From a virus: a stretch of DNA of 38,674 nt. Under the pieces are notes generated by a model. That model did not search any database. It saw only the letters and a program-made list of their open reading frames with translations, and had not been told where the DNA came from. Below are positions 2,212 through 12,598 of the stretch, piece after piece (positions within the stretch are counted from its first letter, which is position 1; each line of letters begins with the position of its first letter). The stretch lies in the IMG/VR virus record IMGVR_UViG_3300044970_002255, positions 1 through 38,674 of that record; one strand, written 5' to 3'. The translations under genes were made by a program, and so were the position numbers.

Positions 2212-3009
2212 TCAGGCGGAGAGTGCGATGGTGGAGGCGGCATCCCAAAGGCCACGGTTGACGCGCAGGGATTCATCCAGGGCCTTGAGCCCGCGGACAC
2301 TGCCAAAGAAGCGGTTGGTGGTGGAGCGCGGATTGACGCGGGCAAGGGCGTCGCGGACGCCGCCACGGATCAGATTTTCCTGAACCACGTTGAAGGTCGT
2401 CCAAAGGTCTCGCGGACAATCATCAAGACGCTGGCGCTGGAGGAGCGTGGTCGGGGTGACCGGATACTGGTCTGCTGGCAGGTCGCCGCCCCAGCGCAGC
2501 TTGATGCCCTGCTCGGCCAGATGGAGGGCCTCGTCCTTGGTGACTTCGAGCTGCTTCCACTCCGTGATGGTGTCGCGGACCTTCGAGGCGGCACCAAGGA
2601 TGGAATGAGATGCCTCGACCACGCGGTCCATTTCCAGGTAGGTGTGGGGGAGACGGACGGTGGCAACCGTGCTGTCGGCGACAACGAGGCCGTTGGCGCA
2701 GATGAAGCGGAACACGCCCGCGCCGATCTGGAGGCTGCTCGCGCCGTCGTGGCTGTTGAAGACAACGGTCTCGACGCGCTCGGAGCTGGACTGGTGAAGC
2801 TGCGAGGCGTGGGCGAAACGCATGAGGTGCTTCTGGAAGCCGTCGCGTCCGGGCTTGCGGCAGCGGGACTGCGAGGCACCGACCAGATGCCAGTCATTGC
2901 TGGCGAACTCTTCCGCGATCTCCTGCGAGGAGATGAAGTTGTAGCGGTCGGAGAGACAGGGGGCGCTGCGTGTGGCAACGGCGGCCGGAGGTAGGGTGAT
3001 ATTGGACAT
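2212..3009 (-). CDS. DUF932 family protein
   Basis: The predicted protein has 265 residues from the ATG at 3007-3009; an in-frame ATG at 3069 would add 20 residues but lies on the candidate promoter. The region NSHDGASSLQIGAGVFRFIC followed by ANGLVV is the typical core of DUF932, a family common in phages and plasmids whose molecular role is not established. The N-terminal SDRYNFISSQEIAEEF and the central tyrosine/valine-rich helix also fit. It is the first gene of the left operon. The leader has no Shine-Dalgarno sequence and ends in AAACACC just before ATG, much like the leader of the gene at 6741. A sigma70-like promoter lies about 40-65 bases upstream. Confidence 0.85.
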   Translation of the reverse strand: MSNITLPPAAVATRSAPCLSDRYNFISSQEIAEEFASNDWHLVGASQSRCRKPGRDGFQKHLMRFAHASQLHQSSSERVETVVFNSHDGASSLQIGAGVFRFICANGLVVADSTVATVRLPHTYLEMDRVVEASHSILGAASKVRDTITEWKQLEVTKDEALHLAEQGIKLRWGGDLPADQYPVTPTTLLQRQRLDDCPRDLWTTFNVVQENLIRGGVRDALARVNPRSTTNRFFGSVRGLKALDESLRVNRGLWDAASTIALSA

Positions 3010-3045
3010 GGTGTTTAGTGGTATTAGGTTTAGACTGACGTTGGA

Positions 3046-3074
3046 GGTATAAGCAAAAAGGAAAGTCATGGCAA
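3046..3074 (-). promoter_or_regulatory. Candidate sigma70-type promoter of the left operon
   Basis: On the minus strand TTGCCA (plus 3069-3074) is followed after 17 bases by TATACC (plus 3046-3051), five and four matches to the -35 and -10 consensus. The predicted start lies near 3039, about 30 bases before the DUF932 ATG. The spacer end reads CCTTTTTGCT, repeated at the -10 region of the candidate promoter at 4226-4255. Not experimentally supported. Confidence 0.45.
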
Positions 3075-3136
3075 CAACTATTTTGCCGGGAAAGTATTTT
3101 GTTCGCGGGAGGCGGGTTTTGGGTTAACCTTTCCAG

Positions 3137-3859
3137 ATGCGCTCCAAACGGTTCCGCAGGGGAGACACACGAGAAGACGGCAAGAGGTTCTGGCACTACT
3201 CCTGCCGGGGCCTCGAATACTGGGTGACGGCAGAGCACTTCGAGCGGCTCCGGGAGTCTGCCCAGGAGCTGACCCGGCAATGGAAGGAGGCCAATCCTGA
3301 CAAGCCAAGGCACTACCGGAAAGCGTGGCGGGAGGCCAATCCCGAGCGGGACAAGGAGCACCGCCGCCGCTGGTCAAAGGCCAACCCCGACAAGGTCAGG
3401 GCGTCCATGAACAAGTATGCCAGACGCAGACGGGCCACCGATCCCATCTACCTGCTCATCGGACGTGTCAGGTGCCGGTTGGGCAAGTTCCTCTCGCGGC
3501 GCGGACTGGTGAAGCAGCGGGGGGTCTCCGCCATGATCGGGTGCTCCTGGCGCGAGCTGCGGGAGCACATCGAGAAGCAGTTCCCGGAGGGCATGGGGTG
3601 GGGGAACCGGGGGAAGTGGCACATTGACCACATTGTCCCGTTGTCCTGCGCCAAAACCATGGAGGACGTGCTTGAGCTGTCCCACTATTCAAACCTGCGG
3701 CCGATCTGGGAACGCGACAATCTGAGGAAGTCGAACTCGATGCCCTCGCCGGAGGAGGTGCCGGAGCGGCTGAGGAGGTTTATCCCAAGTCCACAACCGC
3801 AGGCATTAAAGGTTCCGGTTCCAGATCAGTGTTCCAGATTCCAGCTTCCAGCGCCGTGA
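3137..3859 (+). CDS. HNH endonuclease, free-standing, phage type
   Basis: This 240-residue protein carries an HNH core: WHIDHIVPLS (H162, D164, H165), YSNLRPIWERDN with N186, and NLRKSN near 195-200. A helical segment, IGCSWRELREHIEKQF, precedes the core as in many phage and mobile HNH proteins. The basic N-terminal half has a repeated KEANPDK / REANPER / KANPDK element (about residues 50, 66 and 81), probably a DNA-contacting helical repeat. The predicted activity is metal-dependent DNA nicking or cleavage. It is transcribed opposite to its flanking operons, sits divergent to the DUF932 gene, and overlaps the next gene's 3' end by 80 bases, all consistent with insertion as a homing-type element. 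Confidence 0.85.
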   Translation: MRSKRFRRGDTREDGKRFWHYSCRGLEYWVTAEHFERLRESAQELTRQWKEANPDKPRHYRKAWREANPERDKEHRRRWSKANPDKVRASMNKYARRRRATDPIYLLIGRVRCRLGKFLSRRGLVKQRGVSAMIGCSWRELREHIEKQFPEGMGWGNRGKWHIDHIVPLSCAKTMEDVLELSHYSNLRPIWERDNLRKSNSMPSPEEVPERLRRFIPSPQPQALKVPVPDQCSRFQLPAP

Positions 3860-4220
3860 GAGCCAAAAGGAACTCGGGGGTCTGGGTGCGCGGGTGGTTG
3901 GTCAAGATTGCCTTGGACAGGGACTTCAACTTGATCAGGCGCGGGTCCAAAGGAGGGAGGTCGATGGGCTCGACGGGGACGCGTGGGACAGGTGGGAGTG
4001 TCACAGGGGACGCCGGTGAGACACCTGCGGCCAGCCGGTTGCTGCGCAGCTCTTTTTGACGTGCCCGGTAGGCGCGGGTGCGCAGGGTGGAGTCGGCCAA
4101 GGGTTTGGTGGGGTCGCGGAGCTTCGGCACGCCGCGTTTGCGCCAACGGCGGTCGCGGTCAGCCAATCGGCGCTGCTCGATCTGATCGGCGGAGAGGAAT
4201 CGGTTCGGGATGTAGGGCAT
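3780..4220 (-). CDS. Hypothetical basic protein, 146 aa
   Basis: The ATG at 4218-4220 gives 146 residues; the frame is open to 4421 but the extra residues are hydrophobic low-quality sequence spanning the candidate promoter. The N-terminal third is highly basic and helical (RRLADRDRRWRKRG), followed by STLRTRAYRARQKELRS, then a proline-rich linker and a C-terminal helical region (LLALTALEAGIW). This resembles a nucleic-acid-binding or basic-helix protein, but no family is recognised. Its 3' end overlaps the convergent HNH gene. The candidate promoter's -10 is so close to the ATG that the mRNA may be leaderless. Confidence 0.6.
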   Translation of the reverse strand: MPYIPNRFLSADQIEQRRLADRDRRWRKRGVPKLRDPTKPLADSTLRTRAYRARQKELRSNRLAAGVSPASPVTLPPVPRVPVEPIDLPPLDPRLIKLKSLSKAILTNHPRTQTPEFLLALTALEAGIWNTDLEPEPLMPAVVDLG

Positions 4221-4225
4221 GGCGA

Positions 4226-4255
4226 GTGTTAGCAAAAAGGAGGGGGCTGTGTCAA
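4226..4255 (-). promoter_or_regulatory. Candidate promoter giving a nearly leaderless mRNA
   Basis: A perfect minus-strand TTGACA (plus 4250-4255) is followed after 18 bases by TAACAC (plus 4226-4231). The predicted start falls on or next to the ATG at 4218-4220. The bases CCTTTTTGCTAACAC resemble CCTTTTTGCTTATACC in the promoter at 3046-3074, and TTTTGCTAACA occurs again on the minus strand near 4473-4484. The weak -10 is the main doubt. Confidence 0.4.
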
Positions 4256-4645
4256 GACGGATTCGGGTTTTCGCAAAAGTGAGAAGAGAATCAGAAATGA
4301 GTCGCAAAAAGAATAGAGGATGTGTTAAGCATCGTGAAAGAAAGCTCCGAAAGTGGTGTAGGAGATCGGAGATGGAAGGGTAGGGGATTTGAGGGAAAGG
4401 AAGGGCGTCACACGTCACCAACTTTGGCGTAACGCCTTGATTTCCAACGGGGTTAGAGGCGAAGCCGAGAAATTGTTAGCAAAACGTCACAGCAGACAAC
4501 TCTGGAATCCTTATTTCTATGGCGATAAATAAAAAAATATAGGGGGCCGGGGGCTATGGAACCGTGGCACGGATATGTATGCAAACGCCCGGTCCAGGAG
4601 GATTTCCGATTCCGGGTGCTGTGACGCGTCACCGATCACCAACTT

Positions 4646-6740: not shown

Positions 6741-8051
6741 ATGAAAACAATAGAGCAAAAAATCGAGCGCAATCTTCGCGAGTTTCATCGCCTTGGGCTG
6801 ACCCCTGATTACCCGCTGGATCTCGCTAGAGACTGGGCGGTTGATGGCCGGTACTCGTACGCGATACCCTACATTCGCAACGCACGCGGCCGCGTGAGCT
6901 TCCGCAATCACTGGCAACCGCCGACGATTGCGCAGCGAAAGGCCGCGTACCCTTCGGGGCTTCGCTTGTCGGGGACTCTCTCCGACTGGCTGCAACGCAT
7001 TGCGGCAGGTCCGAACGCGAAGGCGGCACGCGTGGCCGAGGCGCTGCTTTCTGCGGCGTCGTCCCGCGTCTCTCATTCAGTGGCTCCCTTCGGGAATCAC
7101 TTCTCAGTTCGAGAACGGGAGGGCCTTGTCAGCTACTGCCCCGCGAACAGGACACAGGGCATCACCGCCGATGGCAGATGGGAGCGAGCGGGCCGAGTCG
7201 AAATCAAGCCCGCGAAATTCGCTCGCGGCGTTTTGAGGCACCCGGAGCGGTTCAAGGACGACGAGTACGCGGCCTTCGCTGAAGCCTTCGGCGGCGTAGA
7301 GGCCGGGGAGAAAATCGCGTGGGACCTCGTCACCACGGCGGCGGGCTTCGATGAGGCATATAACGCGGAGAATTGGGGGGCAGATAGGAGCGACGCGACG
7401 CCGCACGGCATCACCTCTTGCATGTGGGGGGAACCTGTCGGCGCATTTTACGAGCGAGCAGGCGCTCGCTTGCTAGTAGGCAAGCAAAACGGGAAATTTG
7501 TAGCGCGGGCGGTGATCTGGGAGACGCAGGAACTTGGGACGGTAGTGGACCGGCTGTATGCACAACCTCACATCCGGGAAGCGGTGATCGAGTACGTTTT
7601 TTCGCAGGGATGGGCTAAGAAAGAAGCCGACCGGAGCGGAAACAGCTCTTGGCTCATGCCCGACGGCTCCGCCTACCATCGCGGCGTTTCGGTGGAGCTT
7701 GCGAAAAGTGTCGAAGGCTGCCGATTCTTCCCCTACATCGACACCTTCCAATATCAGGACGGGGACGTACTTTACGCTCGCGAAGATTCGAGCTGGGAGT
7801 ACCGGTACTGCTGCACGACCGGCGGCCGCGACGACAACCATGCCGGGCAGGTTCAGGATGTCGATGGGGAGTGGATCGACGAGAGCGACGCGACCTGCAT
7901 TGACGGTGACTACTACGCAACACACGACGACCGCGTTGTGTATTGTCACAATGATGACGAATACATCCTACGCGCTGACGCTTACGAAGTCGAAGTAGGC
8001 GGGCGGATCGGCACGATATACCTGCACGATCGCTACGTCTCCCGCGCATGA
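6741..8051 (+). CDS. Phage protein of unknown function, 436 aa
   Basis: The gene begins behind an A/C-rich leader ending AACACC-ATG, with no Shine-Dalgarno sequence. The central region has HGITSCMWGE (about residues 223-232), then LLVGKQNGKFVARAVIW. The spacing of 'SCM ... vlv ... RAxxW' recurs in a broad set of large-phage proteins of unknown function. The C-terminal third is acidic, aromatic and tyrosine-rich (DGDYYATHDDRVVYCHNDDE), as in small zinc-finger-like or beta-rich repeats, although the cysteines are not arranged as a clear metal site. No membrane or signal segment is seen. Its stop overlaps the following ATG (ATGA). Confidence 0.75.
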   Translation: MKTIEQKIERNLREFHRLGLTPDYPLDLARDWAVDGRYSYAIPYIRNARGRVSFRNHWQPPTIAQRKAAYPSGLRLSGTLSDWLQRIAAGPNAKAARVAEALLSAASSRVSHSVAPFGNHFSVREREGLVSYCPANRTQGITADGRWERAGRVEIKPAKFARGVLRHPERFKDDEYAAFAEAFGGVEAGEKIAWDLVTTAAGFDEAYNAENWGADRSDATPHGITSCMWGEPVGAFYERAGARLLVGKQNGKFVARAVIWETQELGTVVDRLYAQPHIREAVIEYVFSQGWAKKEADRSGNSSWLMPDGSAYHRGVSVELAKSVEGCRFFPYIDTFQYQDGDVLYAREDSSWEYRYCCTTGGRDDNHAGQVQDVDGEWIDESDATCIDGDYYATHDDRVVYCHNDDEYILRADAYEVEVGGRIGTIYLHDRYVSRA

Positions 8052-9091
8052 ACCCCGGAACTAAACCACCAAACCAGAAAGCATTCATGAAAAAGAACAA
8101 GACCAAAGCCCCATTCCGCATCTCCTCCGACCTCCTAGAAGCTGTTTTCCGCGTTGAATCCGCGAGCTACGATTGCGAGGCCCAAGCTCAGAACGTTGCG
8201 GATCTCTGCACCGCTCGCGGCTGGGACGTTGAGCGAGATGAACACGGCAACGTGATTGTGAGCCATGGCACCGCAGACGTACGGCCCGTGCTCGTCGCAC
8301 ATCTCGACACGGTGCATGAGATCACCGGGAGCCTCACGTTGCACCGATTAGGGCGGAGGCTTTACGCGATGGACGCGGACGAGTGTCAGCAAATCGGCGT
8401 TGGGGGCGATGACAAATGTGGCATTGCTGCGGCCATCGCCGTGGCCGAGCGGCTGCCCGCGTTCCGGCTGCTGTTTATGGTGGATGAGGAGGTAGGCTGC
8501 CACGGCTCGCGACAAATCGACCTTGCACACGTCGCGGACGCCTCGCTAATCCTCCAAGCGGACAGACGCGGAAGCACGGACTTTGTGCATCGCATCGGCT
8601 CGCTCGATCTGCAAAGCGCGAAGTTTCGAGCAGCGGTGAAACCACTACTAAAAGCGCGAGGCTATGCGCCATCCATCGGCATGATGACCGATGTTGAAGC
8701 ATTGGTTGATCGCGGTGCGGGAGTCTGTGCGGCCAATTTGTCGGCAGGGTATCACAACCCGCACACGAGCCACGAGTACGTTGATCTGGATCAACTCGAT
8801 AACTGCGCGGCCCTGATGCTCGACATATGCCAGCAGCTAGGTACCCGCCGCTGGACGCTCCCCAAACAAGAGCGGCCCGCGCCGTTTTTCTCTCGTATCG
8901 AGAGCAAACGCCGAGGCCATCGCCCGGCTGGCGTTTCTCGGCTCGCGTGGGAGTGGGAACAGGACGAGCGGGACACCTGGGATGCAGTAACGTGTCCCGG
9001 CTGTGGCTCGCTGCACTCTCCCGAGCCGGGGGCCGGGGGGCTTTGCTCCGAATGCGTAGAATTCTGGACGAGAAAGCACGGCAACAAATAG
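8048..9091 (+). CDS. M20-like metallopeptidase with C-terminal zinc ribbon
   Basis: Numbered from the ATG at 8048 the protein has 347 residues; a second ATG at 8087 follows an A/C-rich leader like the upstream gene's and may be the true start. Metal-site motifs of the M20/peptidase-T group are VLVAHLDTV (H85, D87), GVGGDDKCG (D121), MVDEEVG (E147, E148), LQADRRG (D172) and a late histidine around SAGYHNPHTSHEY (236-242). The middle of the usual fold is short, so the dimerisation domain seems absent. C316, C319, C333 and C336 form a CPGC...CSEC zinc ribbon, unusual for this family. The likely activity is a di-zinc aminopeptidase or related amidohydrolase. The gene ends at a strong terminator. 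Confidence 0.8.
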   Translation: MNPGTKPPNQKAFMKKNKTKAPFRISSDLLEAVFRVESASYDCEAQAQNVADLCTARGWDVERDEHGNVIVSHGTADVRPVLVAHLDTVHEITGSLTLHRLGRRLYAMDADECQQIGVGGDDKCGIAAAIAVAERLPAFRLLFMVDEEVGCHGSRQIDLAHVADASLILQADRRGSTDFVHRIGSLDLQSAKFRAAVKPLLKARGYAPSIGMMTDVEALVDRGAGVCAANLSAGYHNPHTSHEYVDLDQLDNCAALMLDICQQLGTRRWTLPKQERPAPFFSRIESKRRGHRPAGVSRLAWEWEQDERDTWDAVTCPGCGSLHSPEPGAGGLCSECVEFWTRKHGNK

Positions 9092-9805: not shown

Positions 9806-12598
9806 ATGAAAAAATCCGATCTCATCGCTCAAGGCTACCGCGAAAAGTATGGGGTCTGGTGGCGTCCGGTTGCTGGAAAACCGATGCACGACCTGACCCT
9901 GGAACTGGAAGCCTTCCTCAATCCGCCGAAAACCTCCCCGGGGAAGCCGACCCACTTCAAAAACATCGTCAATGCCATTTGGAACTCAAAGGCCTCGACC
10001 AAGAAATTCGTCTTCCACCCTTGGGCCGAGCGGATGTTGGAAAACGCCTGCGCGAACAAGTTCCTCGCGATCGCCGGATGCTCCTCCTGCGTTTCAGGAG
10101 ATACCCGGATGCTGGACCCTCTAACTGGAAACTTGCCCACTATCCGAGAGCTATGTGAGTCGAAAATTCAACCAGTTGTGCAGACCCTCAACGGCCCGGT
10201 TCTCGCAGACGTGCCCTACCTGAAAGGTCGGGAGGAGCTTTTCGAGTTCAAGCTGTCCAACGGAGAGTCATTCAAGTGTACGAAGGCGCATCGGCTTTTG
10301 ACTCCGCATGGGTGGGTTCGAGCAGAGTCGGTGACTGTGGCCAGCGAGCTTTTTGGATACGCGCCCGACCTTCCGGCGACCACTTTGGGGTCCGACTTTT
10401 CAACTCGAAAGCCAGATGCTCGGCATTGCTTTGGAACAGTTGCAGATTCTCGATCTGATTATTCGCCTTGTTTCCATCTTTATGGTGAACAACTTCGCGC
10501 CGCTCAAGCGGCCGCCCTAAGTGCTGCTCCATCACCAGACGATGCTCAAAGATATACGGGGCATGTCTCCTTTGTCTGGGATGACCTTTCACATGCACCA
10601 GAACATACCCATCCGCATCTGTTGTCCGCCCCTTCCACGCGTAATGACGAGGCCCCGTCACGGCTTTTGGAAACTCTCGCGTCTCCCCGTGACGCCGAAG
10701 AAATTTCTTCACCTCACTCCCTTTGGTGCCAACCGCCTTTGCCATTTCAGCTAGAGAGCGGCCTTCCCGGTTCATTTGGAGAACCAGTTCCGCATTTCGA
10801 TCACAGGAAGCGTACGGGTTGTGACGGCGACCCTCCCGAGGTGTATTTACACCATTCGATTTCAGGATGTGAGAAACTGTCCTCAGTGGAAGGCCCATTT
10901 GGTCAGCAACCAAGCGGGTGCTGCCTGTCGTCTGGAACAGAGCCAGAACTTCTTGATTCCTCAGAAGATTCTTTGCCCAAGCACTCATTGCCTTTACAGG
11001 TATCACTTGTTGTGGTCGAATCAATTCAAAGTGTCGGAGTTCACGATTTCTATGACCTGAATGTTCCTGTTGAACACCATTATTTTGCAGAAGGGGCGAT
11101 TCACCACAATTCTGGGAAGAGTGAGTTTGGGGCCATCTGGGGCATCGTGAACTTCCTGGCTGCCCCCAGCGGCACCAAGGTTCTGGTAACCTCCACATCC
11201 CTCAAAGACTCGCGTCAGCGTATTTGGGGCTCGGTGGAGGAGTATTGGCAGGCCGCCGCAGCCGTGCTTGGGGGCGAGCAGGTGCTCCCGGGAGAGCTGG
11301 TCTCGGCCTCGGGGATGATCCGCTACCGGCAGGGCAACTTCAAATCCGACCGTCAAGGACTGGTTCTCATCGCCGGTGAGAAGTCCAAGGCCAACGAGGC
11401 CATGGGCAAGCTGATCGGCTACAAAGGCTCCCGCGTGATCCTGATCTGCGATGAGTTGCCGGAGCTTTCCGAGAAGCTCCTCAATGCGGCGGAGGCCAAC
11501 CTGTATTCCAACCCGGATTTCAGCATGCTCGGCATCGGGAACCCGAACAGCCACTACGATCCCTTTGGAGTGTTCTCCACGCCGAAGAACGGTTGGGGTT
11601 CGATCCACTCAGACTCCGAGGAGTGGGAGACAGTCCTTGGCAAGTGCATCCGGTTCGACGGGGAGAAATCCCCCAACATCCTGCTGGGAGAAGACCGCTA
11701 CCCTTGGATGATGACCGCCCGCAAGCTGGCCGACTTCAAATCCATGCTTGGCGAGACCACCCAGCGGTATGCCCGCTTCGTGAAAGGCTGGTTCCACGAG
11801 ACCGGCGTTGACGAAGGAGTGTTCAGCGAGGCGGACATCATCAAATATCGCGGCGACTCCAAGACCTTTTGGAAAACCCCGCCGGACGCGGTCGCCGGAT
11901 TCGACCCGGCGTTCACCAACGGCGGCGACGACAGTTTCGTGCAGTTCGGGAAGTTCGGCGAGGACAAGGACGGCAACAAAGTTCTGGAGTGGGGAGACTT
12001 TGCCGAGTTGCAGGAAGACCGTGACATCAAGGACGAGCCGCGCACCCACCAGATCATCCGCCTGCTGCGTGCGGCCTGCGAGGCCCGCAATGTCCACCCG
12101 AAGCGGCTGGCGATCGACGGCACCGGCGCGGGCAAACCTTTCTGCGATGTGGTCAGGTCCGAGTGGAGCGGCGAGTTCCTGGAAGTGAATTTCAGCGGGC
12201 AGGCATCGAATCTGCCAGCCAGCGGCACCGACCCGACTCCCTCCAAGGACCGGTATATCAACCGCGTGTCAGAAATTTGGTTTTCGGGCAGGGAATATCT
12301 CCAGTCCGGCCAGATCAGGGGTATCTACCCGGCGCTGGCCAAGGAACTCTGCGCCCGGAAATTTGAGAACAAGCAGCGCGGCAAGGTGCAGGTGGAGCCG
12401 AAAAAAGACATGAAGGCGAGGATTGGAAAATCCCCTGACCGTGCGGACGCCGCCTTGCTCTGCCTTGAGCTTTGCCGTTCCCGTCTTGGACTCTCCAGTA
12501 AATTGCGCACACGTCCGCACGAAAAAGAAAATTCCCCGGCCAGGGTGTCCGCTTTCAAGGCATTTTCCCGGAAATTCGCCAGGATGCGGGCAAATTAA
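9806..12598 (+). CDS. terL: Terminase large subunit precursor interrupted by an intein
   Basis: The 930-codon frame starts at an ATG with a good Shine-Dalgarno sequence (AAGGAAGG). Removing 341 intein residues leaves a 589-residue terminase. In precursor numbering, Walker A is formed by GCSS (91-94) joined to SGKS (436-439), K438 being the catalytic lysine. Walker B is VILICDE with D549 and E550. The C-terminal nuclease has D700 (GFDPAF), D771 (AIDGTGAG) and D881 (DRADA). The role is ATP-driven packaging of phage DNA into proheads and cutting of concatemers. Without splicing the P-loop is split, so activity should depend on intein removal. Downstream is the glycosyltransferase-like gene, nine bases away from the first possible start codon. 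Confidence 0.95.
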   Translation: MKKSDLIAQGYREKYGVWWRPVAGKPMHDLTLELEAFLNPPKTSPGKPTHFKNIVNAIWNSKASTKKFVFHPWAERMLENACANKFLAIAGCSSCVSGDTRMLDPLTGNLPTIRELCESKIQPVVQTLNGPVLADVPYLKGREELFEFKLSNGESFKCTKAHRLLTPHGWVRAESVTVASELFGYAPDLPATTLGSDFSTRKPDARHCFGTVADSRSDYSPCFHLYGEQLRAAQAAALSAAPSPDDAQRYTGHVSFVWDDLSHAPEHTHPHLLSAPSTRNDEAPSRLLETLASPRDAEEISSPHSLWCQPPLPFQLESGLPGSFGEPVPHFDHRKRTGCDGDPPEVYLHHSISGCEKLSSVEGPFGQQPSGCCLSSGTEPELLDSSEDSLPKHSLPLQVSLVVVESIQSVGVHDFYDLNVPVEHHYFAEGAIHHNSGKSEFGAIWGIVNFLAAPSGTKVLVTSTSLKDSRQRIWGSVEEYWQAAAAVLGGEQVLPGELVSASGMIRYRQGNFKSDRQGLVLIAGEKSKANEAMGKLIGYKGSRVILICDELPELSEKLLNAAEANLYSNPDFSMLGIGNPNSHYDPFGVFSTPKNGWGSIHSDSEEWETVLGKCIRFDGEKSPNILLGEDRYPWMMTARKLADFKSMLGETTQRYARFVKGWFHETGVDEGVFSEADIIKYRGDSKTFWKTPPDAVAGFDPAFTNGGDDSFVQFGKFGEDKDGNKVLEWGDFAELQEDRDIKDEPRTHQIIRLLRAACEARNVHPKRLAIDGTGAGKPFCDVVRSEWSGEFLEVNFSGQASNLPASGTDPTPSKDRYINRVSEIWFSGREYLQSGQIRGIYPALAKELCARKFENKQRGKVQVEPKKDMKARIGKSPDRADAALLCLELCRSRLGLSSKLRTRPHEKENSPARVSAFKAFSRKFARMRAN
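10088..11110 (+). mobile_element. Intein in the TerL P-loop
   Basis: The intein is 341 residues. Block A begins with Cys1 (CVSGDTRML), block B is KCTKAHRLLTPHGW (T65, H68 in intein numbering), block F is VHDFYDLNVPVEHHYFAEGA, and block G is IHHN with H340 and N341 followed by Ser+1. These are the residues for N-S acyl shift, transesterification and Asn cyclisation. No LAGLIDADG, HNH or GIY-YIG motif exists in the sense frame. The segment between blocks B and F (about 230 residues) is serine/proline/histidine-rich and domain-less in sense, while its complement encodes an HNH protein. The extein junction lies within GCSS-SGKS. Terminase P-loops are known hot spots for inteins. Confidence 0.93.
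10272..10988 (-). CDS. HNH homing endonuclease encoded antisense inside the intein
   Basis: The minus-strand frame is 238 residues from the ATG at 10986-10988 and ends at 10272; it is open further back to 11198 but that part mirrors terminase and block F codons. The HNH core is REVVHHKDGNKANNQIENLQ with H168, H169, D171, N173 and N181, preceded by FEHRLVMEQHLGRP (E148, H149), as in phage HNH endonucleases. Upstream are two helix-turn-helix-like segments (about 22-46 and 66-100). The start has a short-spaced AAAGG. The frame spans almost exactly the gap between intein blocks B and F and overlaps the block B codons T65/H68. Predicted function: cutting intein-less terL alleles to drive homing. 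Expression is unproven, with no strong promoter seen. Confidence 0.85.
   Translation of the reverse strand: MSAWAKNLLRNQEVLALFQTTGSTRLVADQMGLPLRTVSHILKSNGVNTPREGRRHNPYASCDRNAELVLQMNREGRSLAEMAKAVGTKGSEVKKFLRRHGETREFPKAVTGPRHYAWKGRTTDADGYVLVHVKGHPRQRRHAPYIFEHRLVMEQHLGRPLERREVVHHKDGNKANNQIENLQLFQSNAEHLAFELKSRTPKWSPEGRARIQKARWPQSPTLLEPTHAESKADAPSYT

Follow-up and report, generated by a model that had tools for sequence, protein, structure and literature searches.

A terL intein with an HNH endonuclease gene on its opposite strand has relatives in many viruses

The terminase gene terL of the IMG/VR virus record studied here (38,674 bases; the window is the whole record) contains an intein, and the DNA between splicing blocks B and F of this intein encodes an HNH endonuclease on the opposite strand. 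In our interpretation, in which we have high confidence, this is a mini-intein that interrupts the Walker A motif of TerL and owes its mobility to an antisense homing endonuclease expressed on its own; splicing, transcription, cleavage and homing are inferred. What sequence comparison by itself demonstrates is dual coding, selection on two frames, conserved start and expression signals in the relatives, empty sites and a derivative lacking the HNH. The back-to-back arrangement of intein and antisense endonuclease is present in more than 100 related viruses, where the endonuclease probably spreads the insert. It is likely that these elements make up a large and ancient class of inteins with splicing and mobility coded on opposite strands, the endonuclease being an autonomous gene whose expression signals lie in synonymous codons of the splicing domain. 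The antisense HNH frame was noticed in an initial annotation made from the letters of the window alone; this observation is confirmed, and it was right and understated.

Features of the window are collected in Table 1. The interrupted ORF is identified as terL by its match to PHROG phrog_2 (3.8e-6), and the insert has the hallmarks of an intein, namely C1, block B with CTKAHR and HHN341 followed by S. Its junctions (slashes) read AGCSS/CVSGDTRML...EHHYFAEGAIHHN/SGKSE, with AIHHN/SGKSE at the C-terminal side. The NCBIfam model intein_Nterm (TIGR01445) matches the intein at 4.7e-7, above the cut-off; PF14890 matches at 4.4e-7 but stays below the Pfam cut-off. In the AF2 model the HINT blocks have pLDDT values of 76–93, and Foldseek matches the modelled intein to the HINT fold of the Mtu RecA intein (2.5e-6). 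Among 54 hosts compared, the block B His, the V and Y of block F and the final Asn are invariant, and C1 is kept in at least 90%. In four relatives (L018, L019, L020 and L023) terL is uninterrupted at the exact intein point. The joined exteins of the window terL are 85–88% identical to the first three of these and 59% identical to L023. Comparison with the flanks of empty-site relatives L018, L020 and L023 revealed no clear rise of identity beside the insertion that would indicate a co-conversion tract. Judged by its sequence, the 341-residue insert in the window terL is an intein, its splicing activity being inferred. The gene upstream of terL (8048–9091, plus strand) matches M28/M20/M42 peptidase families at about 1e-5, which is unusual beside packaging genes.

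Table 1. Coordinates of the intein-bearing terL and of the overlapping antisense gene in the window
Feature	Position	Strand	Remarks
terL ORF with intein	9806–12598	+	930 codons, open throughout; predicted spliced product 589 aa
Intein, 341 aa, C1...HHN341 then Ser	10088–11110	+	In Walker A (AGCSS^SGKSE); ORF residues 95–435
N-terminal splicing region, blocks A–B, intein residues 1–92	10088–10363	+	Family match; HINT strands with pLDDT 76–92
Sense insert, open, without domain	10364–10993	+	Predicted disordered; hardly conserved beyond the constraint imposed by the antisense frame
C-terminal splicing region, blocks F–G, intein residues 303–341	10994–11110	+	79% identity kept in HNH-less mini-intein L033
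Antisense HNH endonuclease gene, 238 codons	10272–10988	-	ATG at 10988, stop inside block B codons
N-terminal helical region, two HTH-like units, residues 3–99	10692–10982	-	AF2 helices with pLDDT 82–91; weak HTH family matches
HNH catalytic motif, residues 148–191 (EHR...HH.D...N...NL...H)	10416–10547	-	Invariant columns among 107 sequences
Antisense leader, 122 nt	10989–11110	-	Overlaps blocks F–G codons; in relatives sigma-70-like promoter and Shine-Dalgarno, or leaderless-type -10

The minus-strand product of 238 residues, placed by the initial annotation between blocks B and F, is indeed an HNH protein: Pfam HNH_3 (PF13392) matches at 1.3e-11, above the curated cut-off, and PHROG HNH families match down to 3e-25. 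The borders agree with the coordinates as well, the antisense frame ending in the codons of block B with its ATG just 5' of the block F codons, and the sense frame is free of stops across the antisense gene, as had been noted. The proposed motif H168-H169-x-D171-x-N173 holds only in part: H169 is invariant, but half of the relatives have D in place of H168, and conservation is lacking at N173. The residues invariant in all 107 sequences are E148, H149, R150, R159, L161, E165, H169, N177 and N181, and H191 is present in 106 of 107. AF2 predicts an N-terminal part of about seven helices, arranged much like HTH-HTH, followed by an HNH module of low confidence (pLDDT of the model 64). A separate DNA-binding domain is at most suggested by the two HTH units of this prediction, HTH family matches being only weak, and Foldseek with the low-confidence HNH model gave no significant PDB match. 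The antisense endonuclease of one relative, L045, has an extra N-terminal HTH-like unit, and its sense insert is correspondingly longer. The claim that the intein has no endonuclease in its own frame, where the residues are domain-less, stands: Pfam, NCBIfam and PHROG searches with the window sense insert gave no match, and in the AF2 model most of it has a pLDDT of about 25. A canonical bifunctional intein, with a sense endonuclease between blocks B and F, was rejected since the sense insert has no family match and the HNH is antisense.

Searches with the HNH and TerL proteins revealed inteins at this position of terL, about 15 of which are clearly distinct; each of these has an HNH antisense in the same phase and a sense frame free of stops. 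The HNH proteins are 45–63% identical to that of the window and the host TerLs only 24–46%; same-phase homologues at this level inside such diverged hosts argue that the antisense ORF did not arise by chance. A wider set came from two profile scans of viral contigs, with 80 of 238 and 80 of at least 575 HNH matches taken. In 158 of 159 further loci the HNH lies antisense within an open sense ORF of 439–1175 aa, always in the same phase; the exception is L235. None of the 14 free-standing HNH relatives (L235 included) has an antisense open segment longer than 124 codons; free-standing HNHs with short matches (L005–L015 and L060) were used as negative controls. After removal of near copies 97 loci remain, 82 with the intein end N/[STC]GK[ST]; others lie in variants of the Walker A context or use a second site, GK^T (between GK and T). 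In a 54-member subset Pfam Intein_splicing is found in 38, terminase domains are found in many and PHROG terminase families dominate. The initial annotation had named a lack of HNH matches for the minus-strand product, antisense stops in homologues, or a sense endonuclease in the same region of homologous inteins, as observations that would refute it; the product does match HNH families, the antisense frame is open in the homologues, and a sense endonuclease was found in this region in none of the related inteins examined. The loci were gathered by similarity to the antisense HNHs and so do not represent a survey of all inteins.

In the phylogenetic tree the 109 antisense HNHs group together, the free-standing L235 being nested among them. 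The simplest reading of this topology would be a single origin with one escape, while long branches leave uncertainty. L235 (324–1028) is a free-standing HTH-HTH-HNH gene branching inside the antisense clade, possibly an escape from an intein. L242 (2114–3868, minus strand) has an antisense-HNH intein in a Sak4-like recombination protein and L216 (1367–4471, minus strand) has one in a non-terminase P-loop protein, VirD4/TraD-like by eye (phrog_5156); the element is thus not confined to terL. L033 (4196–4636) has a 147-residue mini-intein at the terL Walker A that shares the splicing blocks but lacks the HNH, and is a natural deletion derivative. A second mini-intein at the terL Walker A, of 157 aa and without antisense HNH, is found in L075 (4001–4471) and is more distant than L033. 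The 1175-aa terL ORF of L203 (341–3865, minus strand) seems to have two inteins, one with an antisense HNH in Walker A and another with a sense LAGLIDADG (Pfam 4e-5), which makes possible an internal comparison of the two architectures.

We cannot entirely exclude that the endonuclease is expressed for another role, for example in DNA packaging or superinfection exclusion, and that the intein is a mere safe place for its gene. HNH proteins participate in packaging in some phages, the hosts of the element are mostly terL, and the Walker A site is perhaps preferred only for its conservation. We consider such a role unlikely, given that the element also occurs in the Sak4-like and P-loop proteins and at the second site and that close relatives have empty sites. 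Moreover, conservation is higher in intein and HNH than in the host TerLs, which is what horizontal spread would lead one to expect. A mobile element with its own homing endonuclease remains the preferred explanation.

In the phase shared by all these loci antisense codon position 3 faces sense position 2, and it is possible to ask which frame is conserved. Among 15 diverged relatives, all 105 pairs differ most at antisense position 3 in the HNH core (means 0.32/0.23/0.60 for positions 1, 2 and 3). In the flanking splicing blocks of the same relatives it is sense position 3 that varies most, again in 105/105. Antisense position 3 is also the fastest in the HNH in 5663 of 5666 pairs among 107 sequences, and near-identical Pectobacterium phages have the same trend. 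Sense stops are absent in all 15 relatives, while synonymous recoding of the antisense protein gives on average 5–14 per gene (P(0) ≤0.0005). Reverse recoding with random synonymous sense codons brings a mean of 2.6–6.6 antisense stops; Gibbs sampling was used for this and for the expected sense composition. These comparisons show that both frames are under selection, i.e. the antisense HNH on one strand and openness and the splicing blocks on the other. Since the codon-phase statistics reveal selection on the antisense frame, chance is excluded as the origin of the ORF; on the evidence of the alignments it is neither chance nor relic.

The start of the antisense gene is nearly fixed. The ATG is 122 nt from the 3' end of the intein in the window and exactly 122 nt in 14 of 15 close relatives; in the wider set the distance is mostly 101–149 nt. 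Shine-Dalgarno 4-mers peak 9–14 nt before the antisense ATG (N=92), with 119 in the ten positions from -15 to -6 as compared to about 5 per five positions elsewhere. Loci with a Shine-Dalgarno number 50, against 19 after synonymous recoding of the sense strand. Promoters with at most two mismatches are found in 35/92 loci, 5.3 being expected under the same kind of recoding. Where the -10 abuts the ATG a Shine-Dalgarno is found in 0/19 loci, and where the -10 is farther upstream it is found in 36/44. Leaderless and leadered transcripts would be expected to leave just such a pattern in the sequences, which is hard to explain without antisense expression. The nearly fixed start and the position-specific signals in relatives give indirect support to separate expression of the endonuclease, transcription being inferred. 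The window itself is one of the loci with the -10 beside the ATG; the hexamers at its homologous -36/-14 positions are weak (TTGATT and TACCTG). Its own best promoter has four mismatches, the Shine-Dalgarno-like AAGG is too near the ATG, and no promoter was detected in the window by a general consensus scan.

The weak promoter of the window and the lack of expression data would agree with a bacterial-type HNH gene that was inserted backwards into a mini-intein and is now an unexpressed relic, left open by accident of the sense code; antisense frames are often left open by GC-rich sequence. We regard this as very unlikely. Purifying selection tracks the antisense frame in all pairs of the 15-relative set and in nearly all of the larger one, the catalytic residues are invariant, random synonymous sense codons would bring antisense stops, and the start and translation signals are conserved. 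As far as alignments can tell, codon-phase conservation largely refutes the relic.

The sense residues between the splicing blocks are of a different nature. In the alignment of about 15 relatives there is no meaningful invariant sense column here, while the antisense alignment has dozens. Identity of distant pairs in the sense frame is 0.244 as compared to 0.207 expected from the antisense constraint alone. Compared with recoded versions, the inserts have more acidic residues (15/15), more Ser (13/15) and fewer aromatics (15/15), a shift in composition that is consistent with a soluble loop. These deviations are all that speaks for the sense insert being itself a folded domain with the antisense ORF as a by-product, which we give practically no weight, the codon-phase test ruling it out as sense position 2 evolves fastest there, with no invariant column and the low pLDDT pointing the same way.

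According to the mechanism that we prefer, a mini-intein mobilised from its opposite strand, TerL and the whole intein would be translated from the sense strand as one precursor, and the HINT blocks would remove the intein and ligate AGCSS to SGKSE. Some 200 residues, read across the endonuclease gene, would form a tolerated, mostly unstructured loop that needs only to stay free of stops. The antisense strand would give a separate HTH-HTH-HNH endonuclease from its own start, in many relatives presumably from its own promoter and ribosome-binding site or from a leaderless message. A terL gene without intein would be cleaved by this endonuclease at the site of insertion, and the element would spread when the cut is repaired with the intein-bearing copy as template. 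With autonomous antisense signals placed in synonymous codons of the splicing domain, the selfish gene could be expressed with the amount of host protein unchanged. Splicing dosage would then follow terL and endonuclease dosage the antisense promoter, so that two fates are separated.

The usual place of an intein endonuclease is the loop between blocks B and F, in the sense frame (C35 site, PMC6801210). Canonical bifunctional inteins, with LAGLIDADG or with HNH as in Synechocystis GyrB, likewise have HINT blocks and a mobility gene in this loop; theirs is an in-frame sense domain released within the intein, whereas in the window it is a separate protein of the opposite strand. The arrangement thus departs from the rule that the endonuclease forms a domain within the intein protein. 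The ShiLan domain, an HNH hidden in phage methylases, likewise overlaps an open host frame in a different frame, but on the same strand and without detectable splicing blocks (PMC11855218). A ShiLan-type insertion is ruled out by the opposite strand and the presence of HINT blocks. Nuclear group I introns can hold endonuclease genes on the complementary strand, for example in Porphyra SSU rDNA (PMC2585584), and there too the gene is opposite to the host strand inside a self-removing element. A group I intron is, however, an RNA element with a peripheral loop that need not be translated, whereas the overlapped strand of the intein must be translated through, and therefore both strands code for protein. 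A group I intron as host was rejected since the insert is an open intein reading frame, which was judged without a dedicated Rfam scan. Mini-inteins and split inteins with free-standing endonucleases exist, and their endonuclease is likewise not fused to the splicing domain; in the window the gene lies wholly within the coding sequence of the intein, which is not split. Free-standing phage HNHs (PHROG 10730/20891; L235) have the same HTH-HTH-HNH build, but are not embedded antisense in an intein. The initial annotation knew of no antisense arrangement, and none with an antisense endonuclease in an intein was found in the literature searched; an earlier mention in 10.1101/2025.01.02.630785 (non-canonical actinobacteriophage inteins) or in Gorbalenya 1998 is not excluded. 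This natural long antisense overlap allows selection on each strand to be measured codon by codon, with single-coded flanks in the same gene as controls.

Cultured carriers, in which the HNH is antisense in the same phase as in the window, make the arrangement directly testable. Eight phages of Pectobacterium hosts (Koroua, Amona, Taid, Pappous, Sabo, Ymer, Abuela and Setonix, the last named a Dickeya phage) have a 754-residue ORF consisting of TerL and intein (GFG/CVHPHT...GHIHHN/TGKSQ), with an antisense HNH of 232 residues that is unannotated in the records examined. Pseudoalteromonas phage PHS3 (L079, KX912252.1) has a full intein-bearing terL ORF at 2393–4516 with an antisense HNH; its annotation has an opposite-strand HNH endonuclease and, beside it, terL as a truncated C-terminal CDS only. 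Annotations can be corrected accordingly: terL of PHS3 is called truncated, and in the Pectobacterium phages terL is called hypothetical and the endonuclease is missed. A profile search of genome contigs with the HNH alignment found no relative; with the intein alignment it gave one match, an Opitutae MAG contig that has the same antisense arrangement and phase.
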